From a virus: a stretch of 44,390 nt of DNA. A program made the translations under genes and the position numbers. Each line of letters starts with the position of its first letter. Position 1 is the first letter of the stretch. The DNA lies in IMG/VR virus record IMGVR_UViG_3300034102_001960, positions 1 to 44,390 of that record; one strand, written 5' to 3'. Below the pieces are notes generated by a model. The model saw only the letters and a program-made list of their open reading frames with translations. It was not told the DNA's origin and made no database searches. Shown piece by piece: positions 4,494-19,812 of the stretch.

Positions 4494-4637
4494 ATGAATA
4501 CATATAGAGTTAAAATAGAAATAGAGGCAGAAATTGAGGCCTTCGATGAAGGTGATGCTAGAGACTATGCCAGTGATATTTTTGGCGTAGATGATGAAAT
4601 TAAATCTGCTAAAATAATTGAAATAAAAAGTAAATAA
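4494..4637 (+). CDS. small acidic protein of unknown function
   Basis: 47 residues (MNTYRVKIEIEAEIEAFDEGDA...). It starts three bases after the endolysin stop and precedes the tRNA promoter. The sequence suggests a single beta-alpha-beta unit. No function can be assigned. Confidence 0.7.
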   Translation: MNTYRVKIEIEAEIEAFDEGDARDYASDIFGVDDEIKSAKIIEIKSK

Positions 4638-4641
4638 AGGG

Positions 4642-4670
4642 TTGACATTAGATTTTTGTGCAAGTATAAT
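4642..4670 (+). promoter_or_regulatory. tRNA-Leu promoter
   Basis: Consensus TTGACA (4642-4647) and TATAAT (4665-4670) are separated by 17 bases. The tRNA begins 15 bases after the -10. Confidence 0.85.
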
Positions 4671-4685
4671 AATAATAAGCACTAT

Positions 4686-4769
4686 GCCCATATAGCGGAA
4701 TTGGGAAACGCAGCAAACCCAAAGTTTGCCTCCAACCGTGGAGTGTCGGTTTTAATCCGACTATAGGTA
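4686..4769 (+). tRNA. tRNA-Leu (anticodon CAA), atypical anticodon loop
   Basis: 84-base class II tRNA. It has the leucine-type D arm GCGGAATTGG, a long variable arm (CTCCA/TGGAG) and a T arm GTCGG/CCGAC. The anticodon stem GCAAA/TTTGC closes the loop CCCAAAG, giving CAA. Oddities: position 33 is C instead of the near-universal U, the acceptor stem has one C-A mismatch, and CCA is not encoded. It has its own consensus promoter. Confidence 0.75.
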
Positions 4770-4785
4770 CTAGACAGGAAGCTCA

Positions 4786-5016
4786 TTGCTTAACTTAACC
4801 GAACTAGGCGTAGATGTTTTTATAAAAAGATCTAACTCTAAAAATGTTAAATCTTTCTGGGACAATTACTCTTTAATAATCTGGAAAAAAAATAGTTCTG
4901 GGTTTACAAATAAAAACGGTCTATTTAAAAATGAGTGGGGAATTGCAGAAAAAATTGCAATTAACAATGATGGGCTATGGAAGCTCCCAACACAATATGT
5001 CAAAAATTTTAAATAG
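4786..5016 (+). CDS. hypothetical protein
   Basis: 76 residues from a TTG start with CAGGAAG six bases upstream. Lys/Asn-rich, with several Trp residues (NYSLIIWKKNSSGF). No recognised family. Its end overlaps the start region of the WhiB gene. Confidence 0.55.
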   Translation: MLNLTELGVDVFIKRSNSKNVKSFWDNYSLIIWKKNSSGFTNKNGLFKNEWGIAEKIAINNDGLWKLPTQYVKNFK

Positions 5017-5305
5017 TTTAGGAATAGACAAAGACCTACTTCAATGGCAGGACCTAGCACTATGTCTTGGCATGGACACCAACCTATTTTTTGATTCATA
5101 CGAAACAGATGTTAACATAGCCAAAAGTATTGATCAGGCATGCATGTCTTGTCCTGTAATAGCCATGTGTTATAAGTATGGAGTTGAGTCAGATAACTAC
5201 GGAGTTTGGGGCGGAGTTTATTTAAGTTCTGGCACACCAGATAAATCAAAAAATGCACACAAAACAAAAGATATAAACAAAAAAATAAAGGGATTACATG
5301 GCTAA
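4997..5305 (+). CDS. WhiB-like Fe-S transcription regulator
   Basis: About 102 residues from ATG 4997; the frame stays open back to 4931. It has the WhiB pattern of four Cys (C, then CMSC, then MCYKYG) and the GVWGG turn that follows the cluster-binding part in Wbl proteins. Wbl proteins carry an O2/NO-sensitive [4Fe-4S] cluster, bind the primary sigma factor, and are restricted to actinobacteria and their phages. The basic tail (KSKNAHKTKD...KKIKG) fits DNA contact. It could reprogram host sigma-factor promoters here. Confidence 0.88.
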   Translation: MSKILNSLGIDKDLLQWQDLALCLGMDTNLFFDSYETDVNIAKSIDQACMSCPVIAMCYKYGVESDNYGVWGGVYLSSGTPDKSKNAHKTKDINKKIKGLHG

Positions 5306-6413: not shown

Positions 6414-6977
6414 ATGACCTGTATAGTAGCTATTGCCCAAAATGGAACCGTGTATATGGCTTCCGACCATGCCGCATCAGATGATAAAAGCGGAATGATC
6501 CTTGCCAGAAAAGAACCGAAGTGTTTTAAGGTGGGGCAATATGGAATAGCATTTACTGATTCATTTAGAATGGGTCAAATTCTTCAATACTCATGGGCCC
6601 CACCAAAATATACCCCAACAAAAACTAATTCTGGATTAGATAAATTTATGAGAACCAAGTTTATTGATTCTATTAAAGATGCCTTTAAAGAAAATGGATA
6701 TGGAAGCTATGGTACATCTAGCGAAAATGATGGTGATAGCGGGGGAGTTTTTATGGTTGGCGTATGCGGTAGACTTTTTACAATTGATGAAGACTTTCAT
6801 GTGGGAGAAAATGTTGTAAACTACATGGCAGAAGGAAGTGGTGGGGCGATAGCACTTGGAGCCTTGCATGCAACAAAGAAACAGAGAAACCCTAGACTTA
6901 GACTCAAGGCTGCTTTAGAAGCGGCAACTGAGTTTAATATGTGCGTAGCAGGACCCTATACATACATTCAGGTTTAA
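6414..6977 (+). CDS. proteasome/HslV-like Ntn hydrolase
   Basis: 187 residues. It starts Met-Thr, so Met removal would expose an N-terminal Thr nucleophile. What follows matches the beta-subunit pattern: TCIVAIAQNGTVYMASD with the conserved Asp, a Lys in the ARKEPKCFKVG region (Lys33 equivalent), an internal GDSGG, a GSGG-x-ALGAL helix and a final GPYTYIQV strand. Length is close to HslV (about 175). Established families with this fold are self-compartmentalising proteases or amidases. No ATPase partner is encoded nearby, so it may act alone or with host components. Leaderless gene. Confidence 0.75.
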   Translation: MTCIVAIAQNGTVYMASDHAASDDKSGMILARKEPKCFKVGQYGIAFTDSFRMGQILQYSWAPPKYTPTKTNSGLDKFMRTKFIDSIKDAFKENGYGSYGTSSENDGDSGGVFMVGVCGRLFTIDEDFHVGENVVNYMAEGSGGAIALGALHATKKQRNPRLRLKAALEAATEFNMCVAGPYTYIQV

Positions 6978-8699: not shown

Positions 8700-8898
8700 A
8701 TTAACAGTAATGGATGAGATTGTCGGAGAGGTTGCTGAAGGCCTATATAAAAAATGGGTCTCAGCAATGCCTGAAGATGAAAAAAATCAACATGCTTTTA
8801 CTGCAATGTCAAAGAATGCACACGAAACAACTCTATTTGTAATACAAGACTTTATGAATAGATTTAACGCAGCAGCAGAGGAACTTAAAGACAAATGA
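8692..8898 (+). CDS. small helical protein of unknown function
   Basis: 68 residues from ATG 8692, overlapping the subtilase stop by 8 bases; the upstream open frame is a shadow of the subtilase. Acidic helical protein (MAELTVMDEIVGEVAEGLYKKW). Overlaps the thioredoxin start by 4 bases. Confidence 0.7.
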   Translation: MAELTVMDEIVGEVAEGLYKKWVSAMPEDEKNQHAFTAMSKNAHETTLFVIQDFMNRFNAAAEELKDK

Positions 8899-9197
8899 TA
8901 GTAACAGACCAAAGTTTTGATAAGGTTCTTGAAGCTCACAACCTAGTTCTTATCGACTTTTGGGCTGAATGGTGTGGGCCATGTAAAAAGGTATCTCCAA
9001 TACTAGATGAGATATCAAATGAGTGCGGGCTCTGGGTTGGAAAGTTAAATGTTGATGAGAATCCATTAAAATCAGATGAATTTAACGTACAGACTATCCC
9101 AACCATGATACTATTTAGCTATGGTAAACCAGTCAAGACAATAACGGGGGCTAAGCCAAAGCACGTGTTACTTGAGGAGTTATCAGAATGGATTTAG
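8895..9197 (+). CDS. trxA: thioredoxin
   Basis: 100 residues with the full thioredoxin fold pattern. The active site is WCGPCKK (Cys27, Cys30), preceded by the LIDFWAEW strand, with the cis-proline region TIPTMILF and a Gly-rich last strand. Cytoplasmic dithiol reductant. Likely partners encoded here are the class II ribonucleotide reductase and the GPx-like peroxidase, both of which can use thioredoxin. ATGA overlap with the preceding gene. Confidence 0.93.
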   Translation: MIVTDQSFDKVLEAHNLVLIDFWAEWCGPCKKVSPILDEISNECGLWVGKLNVDENPLKSDEFNVQTIPTMILFSYGKPVKTITGAKPKHVLLEELSEWI

Positions 9198-11579: not shown

Positions 11580-11582
11580 TAT

Positions 11583-11705
11583 ATGCTTAATGGGTTATGT
11601 GAAATAAAAGATTGTAAGGGTAAGGCATCCAGAATAGGAAGTTTACCTGAGTCTGGCATAATAGATATGTGTGCAGATTGTTATCAAGAATTGTATAAGG
11701 TGTAA
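11583..11705 (+). CDS. four-cysteine zinc microprotein
   Basis: 40 residues: C..4..C near the start and CADC near the end (MLNGLCEIKDCKGKA...MCADCYQ). Its stop overlaps the radical SAM start (TAATG). Probably a small zinc ribbon. Confidence 0.65.
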   Translation: MLNGLCEIKDCKGKASRIGSLPESGIIDMCADCYQELYKV

Positions 11706-12706
11706 TGAATAAATATATGATAAAGGCAGTACAGCTCGATGTTAACGGTTTGTGTAATTCAGCATGCTGGTTTTGTCCAGTTGCGTATGCTGGTAATCCA
11801 AAATCTGCAATAAGAGACATGCCATTGTCAGAAATAGAAAATATATTTATTCAATTAACTGATGGAAAGGGCGATTTTGTAGATCCAGAATTAAAAATGG
11901 TATATTCAGCTAATTACAACGAAGTTCTTTTATATAAAGAATTTGATGCCATGATGGATCTATATTCAAAATATAATTTTAAAACAAATATACTTACTAA
12001 TGGAGTTAATTTAACTAAATCTAAAACTGAGATTTTAATAAAGCACAGGGATTCTATTGATGGAATATTATTAAACATACCGTCATCTGAAGCCGATACC
12101 TGGTCTAAATACGTTAAAATGAATGTCAAATTATTTCCAAAAGTTATAGAAAATGTAAAATATTTTATAGAAGAAAACAATAAACTAGATAAACCAATCT
12201 TTATCCATCTGATGATTAATGGCATTAACGATTTGTCTTTAACTAAAAATGGTGGATGGCTAGATCTTCTTGAAAATGCACCAAAATTAGATTTAGATGT
12301 TCAAACAGGAGATTTAAAAAAAGAGCATGACAGATTTAAAGAAATTTTTCCAACCTTGAGCATAAGTACAGCTCATCATTTATATGATAGAGCAGCGCAC
12401 CTAGAAACATATAAAATAATGACTCAGGGTCCAGCTATAGAAAAATATTTAATGCCTAAAGGTAGTCGTGTTATAGGATGTTCTGGCGGGATAGAGGTAA
12501 GAAGTAGAACTAATGAGTGGATACACATAAACCCCAATGGGGATCTATTTATATGCTGCGCCGATTACGATTTTGAAACAGTATATGGAAATGCATTTAA
12601 TACTTCAATAAAAGAAATATGGCATAGCAAAAATAGGTCTGACATGGTTGAAAATAGCTACTCTAATATGTGTAGAAGCTGCTCTGCGGCCATTTGGGGC
12701 GACTAA
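11705..12706 (+). CDS. radical SAM protein with SPASM/twitch-like C-terminus
   Basis: 333 residues. The radical SAM [4Fe-4S] motif is CNSACWFC (Cys17, Cys21, Cys24). The C-terminal part has the SPASM/twitch layout: GCSGG, WIHINPNGDLFICCADYDFETVYGNAFNTSIKEIW, then MCRSC, with enough Cys for one or two auxiliary clusters. Such proteins generate a 5'-deoxyadenosyl radical and often modify peptides or sugars. It is coupled by TAATG overlaps to the microproteins on both sides, which makes peptide modification a natural hypothesis, but no known maturase subfamily is recognised. Confidence 0.85.
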   Translation: MNKYMIKAVQLDVNGLCNSACWFCPVAYAGNPKSAIRDMPLSEIENIFIQLTDGKGDFVDPELKMVYSANYNEVLLYKEFDAMMDLYSKYNFKTNILTNGVNLTKSKTEILIKHRDSIDGILLNIPSSEADTWSKYVKMNVKLFPKVIENVKYFIEENNKLDKPIFIHLMINGINDLSLTKNGGWLDLLENAPKLDLDVQTGDLKKEHDRFKEIFPTLSISTAHHLYDRAAHLETYKIMTQGPAIEKYLMPKGSRVIGCSGGIEVRSRTNEWIHINPNGDLFICCADYDFETVYGNAFNTSIKEIWHSKNRSDMVENSYSNMCRSCSAAIWGD

Positions 12707-12804
12707 TGTGTTGGTTATGTGGATGTGCAGATCATATAGGACTAGGTAATAAAAGGGATGAGGATTCAGATTCTAATCAACCAGATGGTATAATAGACCA
12801 ATGA
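12706..12804 (+). CDS. MCxxCGC microprotein 1
   Basis: 32 residues beginning MCWLCGC, then an acidic polar tail. The start overlaps the radical SAM stop (TAATG). The opening matches the CxxCGC nickel-binding N-terminus known from HypB. Metal binding is inferred. Confidence 0.6.
   Translation: MCWLCGCADHIGLGNKRDEDSDSNQPDGIIDQ
12789..12794 (+). promoter_or_regulatory. -10 element ahead of a nine-codon ORF
   Basis: TATAAT ends six bases before ATG 12801, the spacing used by the leaderless genes of this window. It would launch transcription of the downstream microprotein group. Confidence 0.45.
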
Positions 12805-12830
12805 GTAGATTTCTAGAACTACTTAAATAA
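12801..12830 (+). CDS. nine-residue leaderless mini-ORF
   Basis: MSRFLELLK followed by a stop, positioned so that the predicted transcript begins at its ATG. It could be a translated leader or a chance ORF in the 5' leader of the gene at 12851. Confidence 0.3.
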   Translation: MSRFLELLK

Positions 12831-12850
12831 ATAACCTATAGGAGTACAAA

Positions 12851-13009
12851 ATGTCAGACGGAATTAACTTAACAGGATTTAACGAAGTAAAGCCAGGAGC
12901 AACAAACAGCCTTGATCTAAATCCAACAGGCACAGCACCTGCAGCAGCTTTCCCAGCAGCAGACAAGTCAACACAAGACAGTTCAGGCGTAGGCCAGGGC
13001 GGAAAGTAA
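12851..13009 (+). CDS. small Ala/Gly/Ser-rich protein
   Basis: 52 residues (MSDGINLTGFNEVKPGATNS...). AGGAG ribosome binding site nine bases upstream. Low complexity, probably disordered, no Cys. The second half is Ala/Pro-rich and ends in GVGQGGK. Confidence 0.6.
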   Translation: MSDGINLTGFNEVKPGATNSLDLNPTGTAPAAAFPAADKSTQDSSGVGQGGK

Positions 13010-13010
13010 A

Positions 13011-13154
13011 TTGTCAATATTTGATAAAGAAGAAGTAGTGGCACCTACAGTTGCAGCGGCTGTTGCATCAGTAGTTAGATCTGCTACAGCATGTACAAGA
13101 GACACAAGAGGACAATCCCCTTGTGCAGTTAAAGATTGCGAGAACTGTAAATAA
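13011..13154 (+). CDS. small Cys-containing protein
   Basis: 47 residues from TTG 13011, one base after the previous stop, with GGGCGGAAAG as ribosome binding site. Ala/Val-rich helix, then four Cys in the C-terminal half ending CAVKDCENCK. Stop overlaps the next start (TAATG). Confidence 0.55.
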   Translation: MSIFDKEEVVAPTVAAAVASVVRSATACTRDTRGQSPCAVKDCENCK

Positions 13155-13258
13155 TGTGCGTTGAATGCGGATGTGAATCAGTAGGAAGTACAACTGGTAT
13201 TGTTCCAGTTACAATTACAGACACTTCAAGAGATGGTGACTCAGGCTTAACACAATGA
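13154..13258 (+). CDS. MCxxCGC microprotein 2
   Basis: 34 residues beginning MCVECGCESVGS, then a Thr/Val-rich tail. Overlaps the upstream stop (TAATG) and the downstream start (ATGA). Confidence 0.6.
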   Translation: MCVECGCESVGSTTGIVPVTITDTSRDGDSGLTQ

Positions 13259-13455
13259 GTGACTTTAAAAAAGAAGATGGCACTGGCACGACTCCACCAC
13301 CTAATGGTGCAGCTGCAGGGGCCGTTACGAGTAGTTCAGCTACACGCAAGCAGCCACGTCAAGGTCTCAAGACAGACATAAATAGACATGGCATACGTCG
13401 TGAGCTAAATACAAATCCAAGGCCTCCAAAGAGGACTGGTAGAAAAAAGATATAA
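13255..13455 (+). CDS. small basic disordered protein
   Basis: 66 residues. Gly/Ala/Thr-rich start, strongly basic tail (RELNTNPRPPKRTGRKKI). Coupled on both sides by 4-base and 1-base overlaps. Could bind nucleic acid; unproven. Confidence 0.6.
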   Translation: MSDFKKEDGTGTTPPPNGAAAGAVTSSSATRKQPRQGLKTDINRHGIRRELNTNPRPPKRTGRKKI

Positions 13456-13544
13456 TGTGTAAAAGTTGTGGGGCATGCTCTAAAGAACATGCCCCCACAA
13501 TTGATGATTCCGTAGATAAAATTATAGATCTACCTTTTATTTAA
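13455..13544 (+). CDS. MCxxCGxC microprotein 3
   Basis: 29 residues beginning MCKSCGACSKEHAP with a further acidic tail. TAATG overlap with the preceding stop. Fits the same N-terminal Cys pattern with one extra residue before the third Cys. Confidence 0.6.
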   Translation: MCKSCGACSKEHAPTIDDSVDKIIDLPFI

Positions 13545-13559
13545 ACATTAGGATGTAAT

Positions 13560-14609
13560 ATGACAAGCCCGTACACGATTTCAGTTTTAAGTGGTAGACC
13601 AAAGCCAGGCAGCGATGGCCCAATCAATACTCCAATATCATTAAACTCTACCTACCATGCTGGCGGTGATATAGGGTATGCAAGGTACGGCAACGATACA
13701 GCATCTTCATTAGAAGAAGTAATAGGAAAACTAGAGGGCGGCAAAACTTTAGTATTTAATTCTGGAATGTCTGCCATAAAAGCAGTCTTTGATAATATCC
13801 CGCTGGGATCAAAAATAATTGCATCTAACCAGGGATACGCTGGGGTAAATGCAACCTTAAATCAAATGCAAGATCAAGGAAAATTAATTGCAAAGTTTGT
13901 AGATATATCGAATACGGCTGAAGTTTTATCGGAATTAGATGGAGCGTACATGCTTTGGATAGAAAGTCCTACAAATCCCAGACTAGACGTGGCTGACATA
14001 AGTACTCTAATAAGGGCCTGCAAGGCTCAGGACACTATCGTAGGCGTAGACAATACCTTCGCTACACCACTACTTCAAAACCCCCTTAAAATGGGTGCAG
14101 ATATTTCCATGAATTCTGTGACTAAATATTTGGCTGGACACAGCGACGTTTTATGTGGATCAATATCAAGCAATAACACTGATTTGTTTGACAAAATAGA
14201 ATTTTCAAGAAAAATAAGTGGAACTATAATTCAATCATTTGATGCTTATTTAGCTTTAAGAGGAATAAGAACATTCCCAGTAAGGTTTGAAAAAGCCCAA
14301 GATAATGCAAAGAAATTAATAAAAAGAATTTCAGATCATCCGATGGTTTCTAAAATTTATTATCCTGGATTTGGCGCTATGATATCATTTGAGGTAAATA
14401 CTGATTCAGAGGGTGCAGACAGAATATGCTCATCTTCCAGAATTATATCTAATGCAACAAGTCTTGGAAGCGTAGAATCCCTATGGGAAAGAAGAAGAAG
14501 GTGGCCCCTCGAAAGTAAACTGATTCCAGAAAATTTAATTAGATTTTCAGTTGGTTGCGAAGACCCAGAAGACCTATGGAATGACATTAAATATGCATTG
14601 GAATCATAA
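13560..14609 (+). CDS. Cys/Met-metabolism PLP-dependent enzyme (cystathionine gamma-synthase/lyase family)
   Basis: 349 residues. Family signature: YARYGNDTASSLEEVIGKLEG, the PLP-contact Asp164 (GVDNTFATP), Schiff-base Lys189 (SVTKYLAGHSD) and the RFSVGCEDPEDL tail. It is shorter than usual (about 380-400). The conserved HPxHxLAKRQ stretch between YYPGF and GAMISFE is missing, and an ERRRRW motif replaces the usual MTH segment near the end. Reaction could be lyase or sulfhydrylase; not decidable by eye. Confidence 0.82.
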   Translation: MTSPYTISVLSGRPKPGSDGPINTPISLNSTYHAGGDIGYARYGNDTASSLEEVIGKLEGGKTLVFNSGMSAIKAVFDNIPLGSKIIASNQGYAGVNATLNQMQDQGKLIAKFVDISNTAEVLSELDGAYMLWIESPTNPRLDVADISTLIRACKAQDTIVGVDNTFATPLLQNPLKMGADISMNSVTKYLAGHSDVLCGSISSNNTDLFDKIEFSRKISGTIIQSFDAYLALRGIRTFPVRFEKAQDNAKKLIKRISDHPMVSKIYYPGFGAMISFEVNTDSEGADRICSSSRIISNATSLGSVESLWERRRRWPLESKLIPENLIRFSVGCEDPEDLWNDIKYALES

Positions 14610-14975: not shown

Positions 14976-17039
14976 ATGAGTGAAGAAAAATGTCCCGTAA
15001 CTGGACATTCATCAAAGCCAGAAGCAACAACAAATGAATACTGGTGGCCCAATAGATTAAATTTATCAGGATTAAGAAAACATTCAGAAAAGTCTAACCC
15101 AATGTCGACAGATTTTGATTATGCTAAAGAATTTGAAAGCCTAGATCTTGATGAAGTTAAGGATGACATTAATAATCTTTTAACTACATCGCAAGATTGG
15201 TGGCCAGCAGACTATGGCAATTACGGACCATTTTTTATTCGCATGGCTTGGCACTCAGCAGGAACCTACAGAACATCAGATGGACGTGGTGGTTCTGGAG
15301 AAGGCTTGCATAGATTTGCACCACAAAATTCGTGGCCAGATAATGGTAACTTAGATAAAGCTCGCCGTTTACTATGGCCTATCAAGCAAAAGTATGGCAA
15401 AAAGATTTCTTGGGCAGACTTAATGATACTTGCAGGTAACGTTTCTCTTGAAAACATGGGCTTCAATACATTTGGTTTCGCTGGCGGACGTGAAGATGTT
15501 TGGGAATCAGATGATACATACTGGGGTAATGAAAAAGAATGGTTAGCAGACAATAGATATAGCGGTGATCGTGAACTAGAAAACCCATTGGCTGCTGTTC
15601 AAATGGGATTAATTTATGTTAACCCCGAAGGCCCTAACGGTAATCCAGACCCAATTCTTTCTGCAAGAGACATTCGTGAAACGTTTGCTCGTATGGCAAT
15701 GAATGACGAAGAGACTGTTGCGCTAATTGCAGGTGGACATGCATTTGGTAAAGCACACGGAGCTGGTAATCCAGCTAATGTTGGCCCAAACCCAGAGCAG
15801 GCACCGATAGAAGAAATGGGACTTGGATGGAAGAACTCATTCGGTAAAGGCAACGCAGAAGATACAATCACGAGTGGTATAGAGGGCGCATGGAGCCCAA
15901 CACCAACTCGATGGGATAACTCATATCTTGAGTTATTGTTTACATATGATTGGAAACAAACAAAAAGTCCTGCTGGTGCAACACAATGGATTCCTACAAA
16001 TGAATCTGCTGCTAATTTAGTTCCAGACGCACATCTAGATGGTAAATTTCATGCACCTATGATGACTACAGCAGACCTAGCATTAAAATTTGATCCAGAG
16101 TATAACAAGATATCTATTAGATTTCTTAAAGACTTTGAATACTTCTCGGATGTATTTGCTCGTGCATGGTTTAAATTAACTCATAGAGATATGGGTCCAG
16201 TTTCAAGATATCTTGGCAAAGAAGTTCCTTCAGAAATATTAATATGGCAAGACCCAGTTCCATTAGTAAAAAGAAAAACAATTTCTGATAAAAATATTAA
16301 AAAGATAAAGAAACAAATATTAGATTCAGGATTATCTATTTCAGATCTAGTAAATACTGCATGGGCCTCTGCTTCTACGTTTAGAAAAACAGATAAAAGA
16401 GGCGGAGCAAATGGTGCGAGAATTCGATTACAACCACAGATATCTTGGGATGTAAATGATACTGCCACAATTAGTAAAGTACTTGCAGTATTGGAATCTA
16501 TTAAAACAGAAATGTCTATGGCAGACTTAATTGTGCTTGGAGGATGTGCTGCTATTGAAAAATCAGCAGAGCAAGCGGGGATTAAGTTATCTGTTCCATT
16601 TACACAGGGTAGAACAGATGCATCTCAAGATCAGACAGACGTTGATTCATTTTCAGTACTTGAGCCACAATTTGATGGCTTCCGTAACTACATTAATTGG
16701 AGAGTTACTGCCCCAGAAGAAGTATTATTAGTAGAAAAAGCCAACCTATTAAACCTAAATCCAGTAGAGCTTGTATTACTACTATCTGGAATTAGAATGC
16801 TAAATAAAAATAACTTAGACAACACCTATTTAGCTAAGTTGCTTTCTTACACTAATGCTAGTGAGGCAACTAACGTCCCCCGCATTGATCTTATTATTGC
16901 GTCTAACTCAGAGCTACGTGCAATTGCAGAAGTATATGCGTCAAATGATGCAAGAGATAAGTTCTTCTTAGACTTTGCTAATGCATGGTCAAAGGTTATG
17001 GATCTTGATAGATTTGATATAAAGAAAGGGAAAAAGTGA
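14976..17039 (+). CDS. katG: catalase-peroxidase KatG
   Basis: 687 residues, full two-domain layout. Distal site Arg89, Trp92, His93 ([12 protein letters not shown]); covalent-adduct partners Trp92, Tyr214 ([10 protein letters not shown]) and Met240 (ARMAMND); proximal heme ligand His255 ([11 protein letters not shown]). All residues needed for both catalase and peroxidase activity are present. It ends in the normal [12 protein letters not shown]. It is about 40 residues short because a loop before [14 protein letters not shown] is missing. A complete katG is rare in phages. Position behind tRNA-Asn suggests acquisition at a tRNA. Likely role: removing H2O2 during infection. Confidence 0.97.
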
Positions 17040-19353: not shown

Positions 19354-19812
19354 ATGTCAGCATTTGATTATAGCTTTACAGATAACAATGGTAATGAAAT
19401 AGATTTAGGACAGTTTAAGGGAAAGTTATTGCTTCTTGTTAATGTTGCTAGCCGATGTGGAATGACACCTCAATACGAGGGGCTTCAAGCACTGCACAAG
19501 AAATATGCAGACAAGGGTTTGGTTTTAATCGGATTCCCATGTAATCAGTTTGGCGGACAAGAACCAGGATCAGACGAAGACATTAAAGAATTTTGTAGCA
19601 CAACATACGGGGTAGATTTTTTGATGTCTACAAAAATTGATGTTAATGGCCCAGATGCACACCCGCTATTTAAATATTTAGTCTCGCAGGCAGATTTTGA
19701 TGAAGTGCCATGGAACTTTACTAAGTTTCTTATTGATGATCAATTTAGATCTATGGGGCCACAAACAACTCCAGAACAAATTGATGGATTTATAGAAAAT
19801 ATTTTATCTTAA
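19354..19812 (+). CDS. glutathione peroxidase family (probably thioredoxin-dependent)
   Basis: 152 residues, normal length. Peroxidatic Cys35 in VNVASRCGMT, a second Cys63 with Gln65 in GFPCNQFGGQEPG, and the WNFTKF motif that completes the catalytic tetrad. It is the Cys version, as in bacterial BsaA/BtuE-type enzymes, which usually take electrons from thioredoxin. With KatG and the phage thioredoxin it forms a peroxide-removal set. Confidence 0.92.
   Translation: MSAFDYSFTDNNGNEIDLGQFKGKLLLLVNVASRCGMTPQYEGLQALHKKYADKGLVLIGFPCNQFGGQEPGSDEDIKEFCSTTYGVDFLMSTKIDVNGPDAHPLFKYLVSQADFDEVPWNFTKFLIDDQFRSMGPQTTPEQIDGFIENILS

Follow-up and report, generated by a model that had tools for sequence, protein, structure and literature searches.

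In the radical SAM/SPASM RiPP pairs described so far (SuiB/SuiA, SkfB, EpeE/YydG, PqqE/PqqA and MftC/MftA), an enzyme with a radical SAM core and a SPASM or Twitch C-terminus adjoins a short peptide gene. Cofactor-type RiPP systems keep the core invariant while the remainder varies, and a recognition domain (RRE) is not present in every RiPP radical SAM enzyme. For BtrN and DesII, radical SAM enzymes acting on small molecules, we know of no dedicated Cys-rich peptide partner. A further point of comparison is the high-affinity nickel site of E. coli HypB, a CXXCGC motif in which Cys2, Cys5 and Cys7 bind the metal together with the N-terminal amine (PMC7055735).

The locus described here bears a likeness to each of these systems. 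It lies in IMG/VR virus record IMGVR_UViG_3300034102_001960, positions 1-44,390 (the window, 44,390 nucleotides, to which coordinates refer unless another record is named). A sequence-only reading had proposed a SPASM-type radical SAM gene followed by a single train of small genes, mostly joined by TAATG or ATGA overlaps, in which three microproteins start with MCWLCGC, MCVECGC and MCKSCGAC. The ORF positions and translations confirm the three microproteins, with these starts and with the proposed lengths and places, and the overlaps are real, including a TAATG shared by the stop of the radical SAM gene (rSAM) and the start of the first microprotein gene (MCW). The sole break, at 12805-12850, is where a promoter and leader lie, and here the supposed single train splits. 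The locus is thus best described as two units, the rSAM and MCW pair and a promoter-driven set with two further MCxxCG(x)C microproteins:

11583..11705, plus strand: 40-aa Cys4 small protein, directly upstream of rSAM
11705..12706, plus strand: radical SAM enzyme (rSAM), characterised by Pfam matches, alignments, predicted structure and fold comparison
12706..12804, plus strand: MCW microprotein (MCWLCGCADHIGLGNKRDEDSDSNQPDGIIDQ), 32 aa, MCWLCGC start, the dedicated partner of rSAM
12786-12795, plus strand: extended -10 box TGnTATAATA, enclosing the TATAAT below
12789..12794, plus strand: TATAAT (-10) within the MCW gene at its 3' end; probably the promoter from which the next unit is transcribed
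12802..12825, plus strand: leader hairpin with a 7-bp stem and a CTAG-containing loop, TGAGTAG-ATTTCTAGAA-CTACTTA, stem covariation
12851..13009, plus strand: 52-aa low-complexity protein (MSDG family), opening the promoter-driven unit
13011..13154, plus strand: 47-aa protein with a TTG start and a Cys-rich C-terminus (CTRDTRG..CAVKDCENCK)
13154..13258, plus strand: MCxECGC microprotein, 34 aa, MCVECGC start, no link to rSAM
13255..13455, plus strand: 66-aa basic low-complexity protein
13455..13544, plus strand: MC[KR]xCGxCSKEH microprotein, 29 aa, MCKSCGAC start, no link to rSAM
13560..14609, plus strand: Cys/Met-metabolism PLP enzyme (PF01053, cystathionine gamma-lyase/synthase-like)

The proposed nature of the upstream gene is borne out by Pfam, with matches above cut-off to both PF04055 (1.6e-7) and the SPASM family PF13186 (6.1e-11). 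In an alignment of 20 sequences, down to 47% identity, the three cysteines of the CxxxCxxC motif at residues 17-24 (Cys17, Cys21 and Cys24) are invariant, and so are the C-terminal auxiliary cysteines C259, C284, C323 and C326 together with C285. The enzyme thus combines the CxxxCxxC core with the C-terminal auxiliary cluster motif of the radical SAM/SPASM-Twitch superfamily, and the spacing of its cysteines suggests the Twitch subclass. In a Foldseek/VIA comparison, which speaks only to the families in its list, the AlphaFold model (pLDDT 75, pTM 0.81) lies closest to ChlB (Z 15.8), DesII (15.6), anSME (15.1), SuiB (15.0) and BtrN (14.9), at 3.4-4.1 Å. Since the peptide maturases ChlB, anSME and SuiB tie with the small-molecule enzymes DesII and BtrN, the fold cannot tell the type of substrate. 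The top PDB profile match is BtrN (1.4e-10). No known maturase family claims the protein, as 14/14 NCBIfam matches fall below their equivalog cut-offs; an 8-mer pattern scan of 84,980 species, which distant relatives could escape, found no cellular relatives, and isolated phages gave no match. The protein begins at its radical SAM core, leaving no space for an N-terminal RRE, and next to the rSAM-MCW pair we saw neither an RRE-like recognition domain nor a protease or exporter.

This enzyme is strictly associated with one of the three microproteins. Two scans with rSAM as bait yielded 48 loci (46-100% identical), and among the 47 informative ones MCW, recognised as MCW[LMI]CGC-A-[DS]-H, is present in 45, either 0-7 nt past the rSAM stop or, in six loci, behind the Cys/Met PLP gene. 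The exceptions are L168, in which rSAM is intact and the MCW gene has lost its head, its 3' tail being kept, and L171, which has the most distant rSAM (46% identity) and is without MCW. In the reverse direction, an IMG/VR search for the pattern MCW[x]CGCA found rSAM in 46/46 contigs (45 were seen directly; the remaining one is that of L017). A short peptide gene is thus strictly linked to rSAM, as in RiPP pairs, although the counts of 45/47 and 46/46 do not represent independent events, since IMG/VR records are fragments and mutually related. The conserved pairing of a radical SAM gene with MCxxCGC peptides that had been anticipated for related phages therefore exists for MCW; it does not extend to MCVECGC and MCKSCGAC, which are found without rSAM in a separate promoter-driven unit.

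Three gene neighbourhoods harbour the pair. In the window it follows a DUF2061 gene; a second neighbourhood, with the order rSAM-PLP-MCW, is represented by L014-L017, L147 and L150; and in the third (L018, L148 and L149) a methyltransferase gene precedes the pair, which in L148 is of the TylF type. Since the gene order varies across these neighbourhoods (rSAM-MCW, rSAM-PLP-MCW or rSAM-MCW-PLP), the linkage is not mere inherited adjacency. The pair can also be absent as a unit. A close relative, L112, aligns with the window on both sides of it (at 86% before it and at 81% after it, followed by 95.6% over 3.9 kb) and is without 11581-12764, which holds the 40-aa gene, rSAM and the MCW head; separately, it is without 13518-14608, the PLP gene. 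rSAM and MCW are an exchangeable pair that relatives can lack as a block. L112 has a different, diverged 40-aa gene at the site of the missing pair, and since the 40-aa Cys4 gene is also present in many relatives that have no rSAM, it stands outside the pair.

The conserved part of MCW is small. Its consensus is MCWxCGCADHxGxGN in a protein of 23-41 residues, the invariants being M, C, W, C, G, C, A, H and G, and conservation at the protein level covers only the head of about 16 residues (1-16), which is under strong purifying selection (dN/dS = 0.05, compared with about 1.2 for the tail). The other two microproteins are likewise under purifying selection, with dN/dS values of 0.25 for MCKxCGxC and 0.33 for MCxECGC, so that the selection check comes out in favour of all three being genuine genes. 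AlphaFold predicts no confident fold for MCW alone (pLDDT 58). Unlike in the RiPP pairs above, what is invariant lies at the very N-terminus with no leader before it, and the system is encoded by phages.

The PLP gene is present in 26/48 rSAM loci and in 0/26 loci without rSAM, and it was not found elsewhere in the rSAM-less records searched. We rejected the idea that the PLP enzyme is a third and obligatory partner, as many phages with rSAM and MCW have no PLP gene. Further along, the window encodes a phage catalase-peroxidase, KatG (14976-17039); the corresponding region of another locus (L007:10302-11350) has genes for AhpC and an AhpD-like protein in its place, and this peroxide-defence slot therefore seems to be exchangeable. 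The window also encodes a glutathione peroxidase (19354-19812), a thioredoxin (8895-9197) and a protein beginning MTCIVAIA (6414-6977), conserved in relatives, whose sub-threshold match to a proteasome subunit (0.063) makes it a possible N-terminal-nucleophile hydrolase. Near rSAM-MCW in L014 lies a ferritin/Dps-like gene (4589-5059; PF00210 just below cut-off), and genes resembling it lie near the pair in L018, L148 and L150, that is, in the second and third neighbourhoods.

The second unit begins, in a sense, inside the first. TATAAT is kept in 28/32 distinct MCW genes, and in the four without it the PLP gene comes next, not the MSDG gene. The MCW tail (..NQxNDIID) had itself appeared as a conserved peptide element; for most MCW genes we reject this, since the tail encodes TATAAT, its DNA is kept without rSAM and its dN/dS is about 1.2. 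Its apparent conservation arises because the DNA there is the extended -10 box. Relatives without rSAM also have TATAAT, the 7-bp CTAG-loop hairpin and aacctataggag ahead of the MSDG gene, and across 44 distinct leaders in related loci the hairpin stem covaries (GAGCGG/CCGCTT, GATGG/CCATC, GACGG/CCGTC, GAGTAG/CTACTT and AACGG/CCGTT). The whole of 12786-12825, with its -10 box, covarying hairpin and fixed aacctataggag before the MSDG gene, is in its own right a conserved structured phage leader RNA. The window has 10 copies of the box TGnTATAATA where 1.36 would be expected (sites include 3154, 12786, 18928, 20075 and 26189-), an excess which suggests that the box probably serves this phage as a general promoter. 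Judged from these sequence features, the -10/hairpin element would drive a separate transcript, and read-through from rSAM into the downstream unit may also occur. Since the promoter-like box and leader are retained without rSAM, a unit of their own is the most likely arrangement for the MCVECGC and MCKSCGAC genes. This agrees with 24 related records of up to 113 kb, none among the MCW contigs, from which rSAM and MCW are both missing and which carry other MCxxCGC peptides; conversely, L148 and L149 have rSAM with MCW as the only peptide of this type. On the strength of the 24 records, we rejected a single system of rSAM and all MCxxCGC peptides.

As to the host, the window encodes a WhiB protein (PF02467, 4931-5305), found in 16/28 records tested and across all three classes; WhiB marks actinophages (PMC10202952). 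KatG of the window is 63% identical to that of the actinobacterium IMCC25003 and 62-63% to others, a weak resemblance. From WhiB and this resemblance, the hosts are presumed to be freshwater actinobacteria, presumably of the order of IMCC25003.

The MCxxCGC start reaches well beyond the locus. In the window, ATG-Cys-x-x-Cys-Gly-(0/1)-Cys has 2 exact matches where 0.02 are expected; in IMG/VR, MCxxCGC codons behind TAATG are found in at least 119 stretches, compared with 6 for the reordered control MCGCxxC; and in the loci obtained with rSAM as bait, 94 occurrences of C..CGC come right after an ATG and a single one does not. We found no description of the motif in phages in the open-access literature searched, and isolated phages gave no match to two representative peptides. 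The start is thus a widespread and apparently undescribed feature of actinophage microproteins. Further classes occur in other phages (L022-L140, for example L038, L111, L054 and L117), including Lys-rich MCxxCGC microproteins in tandem pairs, which lie close to genes resembling those of the tail sheath or tube, and MCAxCGCGYATYDD peptides, which have capsid-like genes nearby, these neighbours being recognised by eye from ORF sequences.

The suggested resemblance to the HypB nickel site holds at the level of the motif. As in HypB (PMC7055735), the MCxxCGC at the extreme N-terminus makes Cys2, Cys5 and Cys7 and the terminal amine available (the third peptide has CxxCGxC instead), and the NCBIfam model HypB_prefix (NF053667 HypB_prefix_1) touches the first peptide below cut-off. 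It does not extend to the rest of the protein: unlike HypB, these are stand-alone peptides, mostly of 23-85 aa, with no CobW/HypB GTPase domain, and those of 29-34 aa have no Pfam match. The identical start, as MCS[YH]CGC, heads iron-binding hemerythrin-like proteins in the order of IMCC25003 (L298, L317, L318 and L319, with hemerythrin confirmed by Pfam for L298 and L317); these differ in being cellular proteins of 143-152 aa with a folded domain. Hemerythrins apart, pattern matches in this order were mostly unconvincing as genes. Two phage proteins of 238 aa, both Fe(II)/2OG oxygenases (L020:1848-2564 and L151:4515-5231), start with MCTTCGC and MCNSCGC; in them the head of the microproteins is joined to an iron enzyme. 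With the motif forming the HypB nickel site and heading both hemerythrins and a phage oxygenase, metal binding is likely, and the most economical, basic property of the class.

We put at a little below an even chance the reading that rSAM has the dedicated microprotein MCW as its substrate, beside a separate promoter-driven small-protein unit. The two would form an enzyme-peptide pair, a RiPP-like maturase and precursor (or an enzyme with a dedicated metallopeptide), in which rSAM would most likely modify the invariant Cys/Trp/His head of MCW. MCW would be a precursor of the cofactor style, its core invariant and its C-terminal tail free, and the product would probably be a modified thiol- or metal-binding peptide; the Cys/Met PLP enzyme would often accompany the pair. 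The second unit would be transcribed from the promoter inside the 3' end of MCW, led by the hairpin, and its two MCxxCG(x)C microproteins, encoded among other small proteins, would belong to a broad actinophage class that probably binds a transition metal as HypB does, independently of rSAM. Against MCW as substrate stand L168 and L171, the failure to see an RRE-like domain, protease or exporter beside the pair, and a fold that fits either type of substrate; and since the MCxxCGC head is also carried by peptides that never meet rSAM, the head alone is no maturase signature.

It is possible, if not probable, that MCW is left unmodified and acts as a metal or Fe-S carrier which loads, protects or reduces rSAM (or its auxiliary cluster) during infection, the true substrate lying elsewhere. 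This would fit a head shared with a broad class without rSAM, the HypB-type site, the same start on iron proteins and the abundance of oxidative-stress genes nearby (KatG, glutathione peroxidase and thioredoxin, and AhpC and the AhpD-like protein in L007). By itself, however, it leaves W3, A8, H10 and G12 unexplained, which are invariants specific to the rSAM-linked member, and we know of no precedent for a 30-aa cluster donor dedicated to a radical SAM enzyme. One could also speculate that rSAM and the PLP enzyme act on a small molecule, nucleotide or glycan, in the manner of BtrN or DesII, with MCW a co-inherited neighbour of independent role. The tied folds, the BtrN profile match and the TylF methyltransferase and sulfotransferase genes in other contexts speak for this, but MCW pairing is exclusive through three neighbourhoods and PLP is missing from many phages with the pair, and we regard the idea as quite unlikely. 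The RiPP-like interpretation originally offered, with all three window peptides as substrates of one rSAM, draws on their common MCxxCG(x)C head and proximity and is very improbable indeed, given the 24 records in which MCxECGC- or MCxxCGxC-type peptides persist without rSAM, the separate promoter, and L148 and L149.

Returning to MCW as the substrate of rSAM, a broader and unlikely extension would be a peptide-based metal/redox system of actinophages, in which the MCxxCGC class would supply the proteins of the infecting phage with transition metals and rSAM would convert MCW to a peptide-derived cofactor or metallophore; to our knowledge, this would be the first of its kind in phages. At the level of the observations, a testable enzyme-peptide pair is defined in uncultivated phages that probably infect some of the most abundant bacteria of fresh water, and a widespread class of phage microproteins with the start of the HypB nickel site is exposed. 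If MCW is modified or loaded with metal, these phages would make their own peptide cofactor or manage metals during infection, a side of phage biology that has been little explored.
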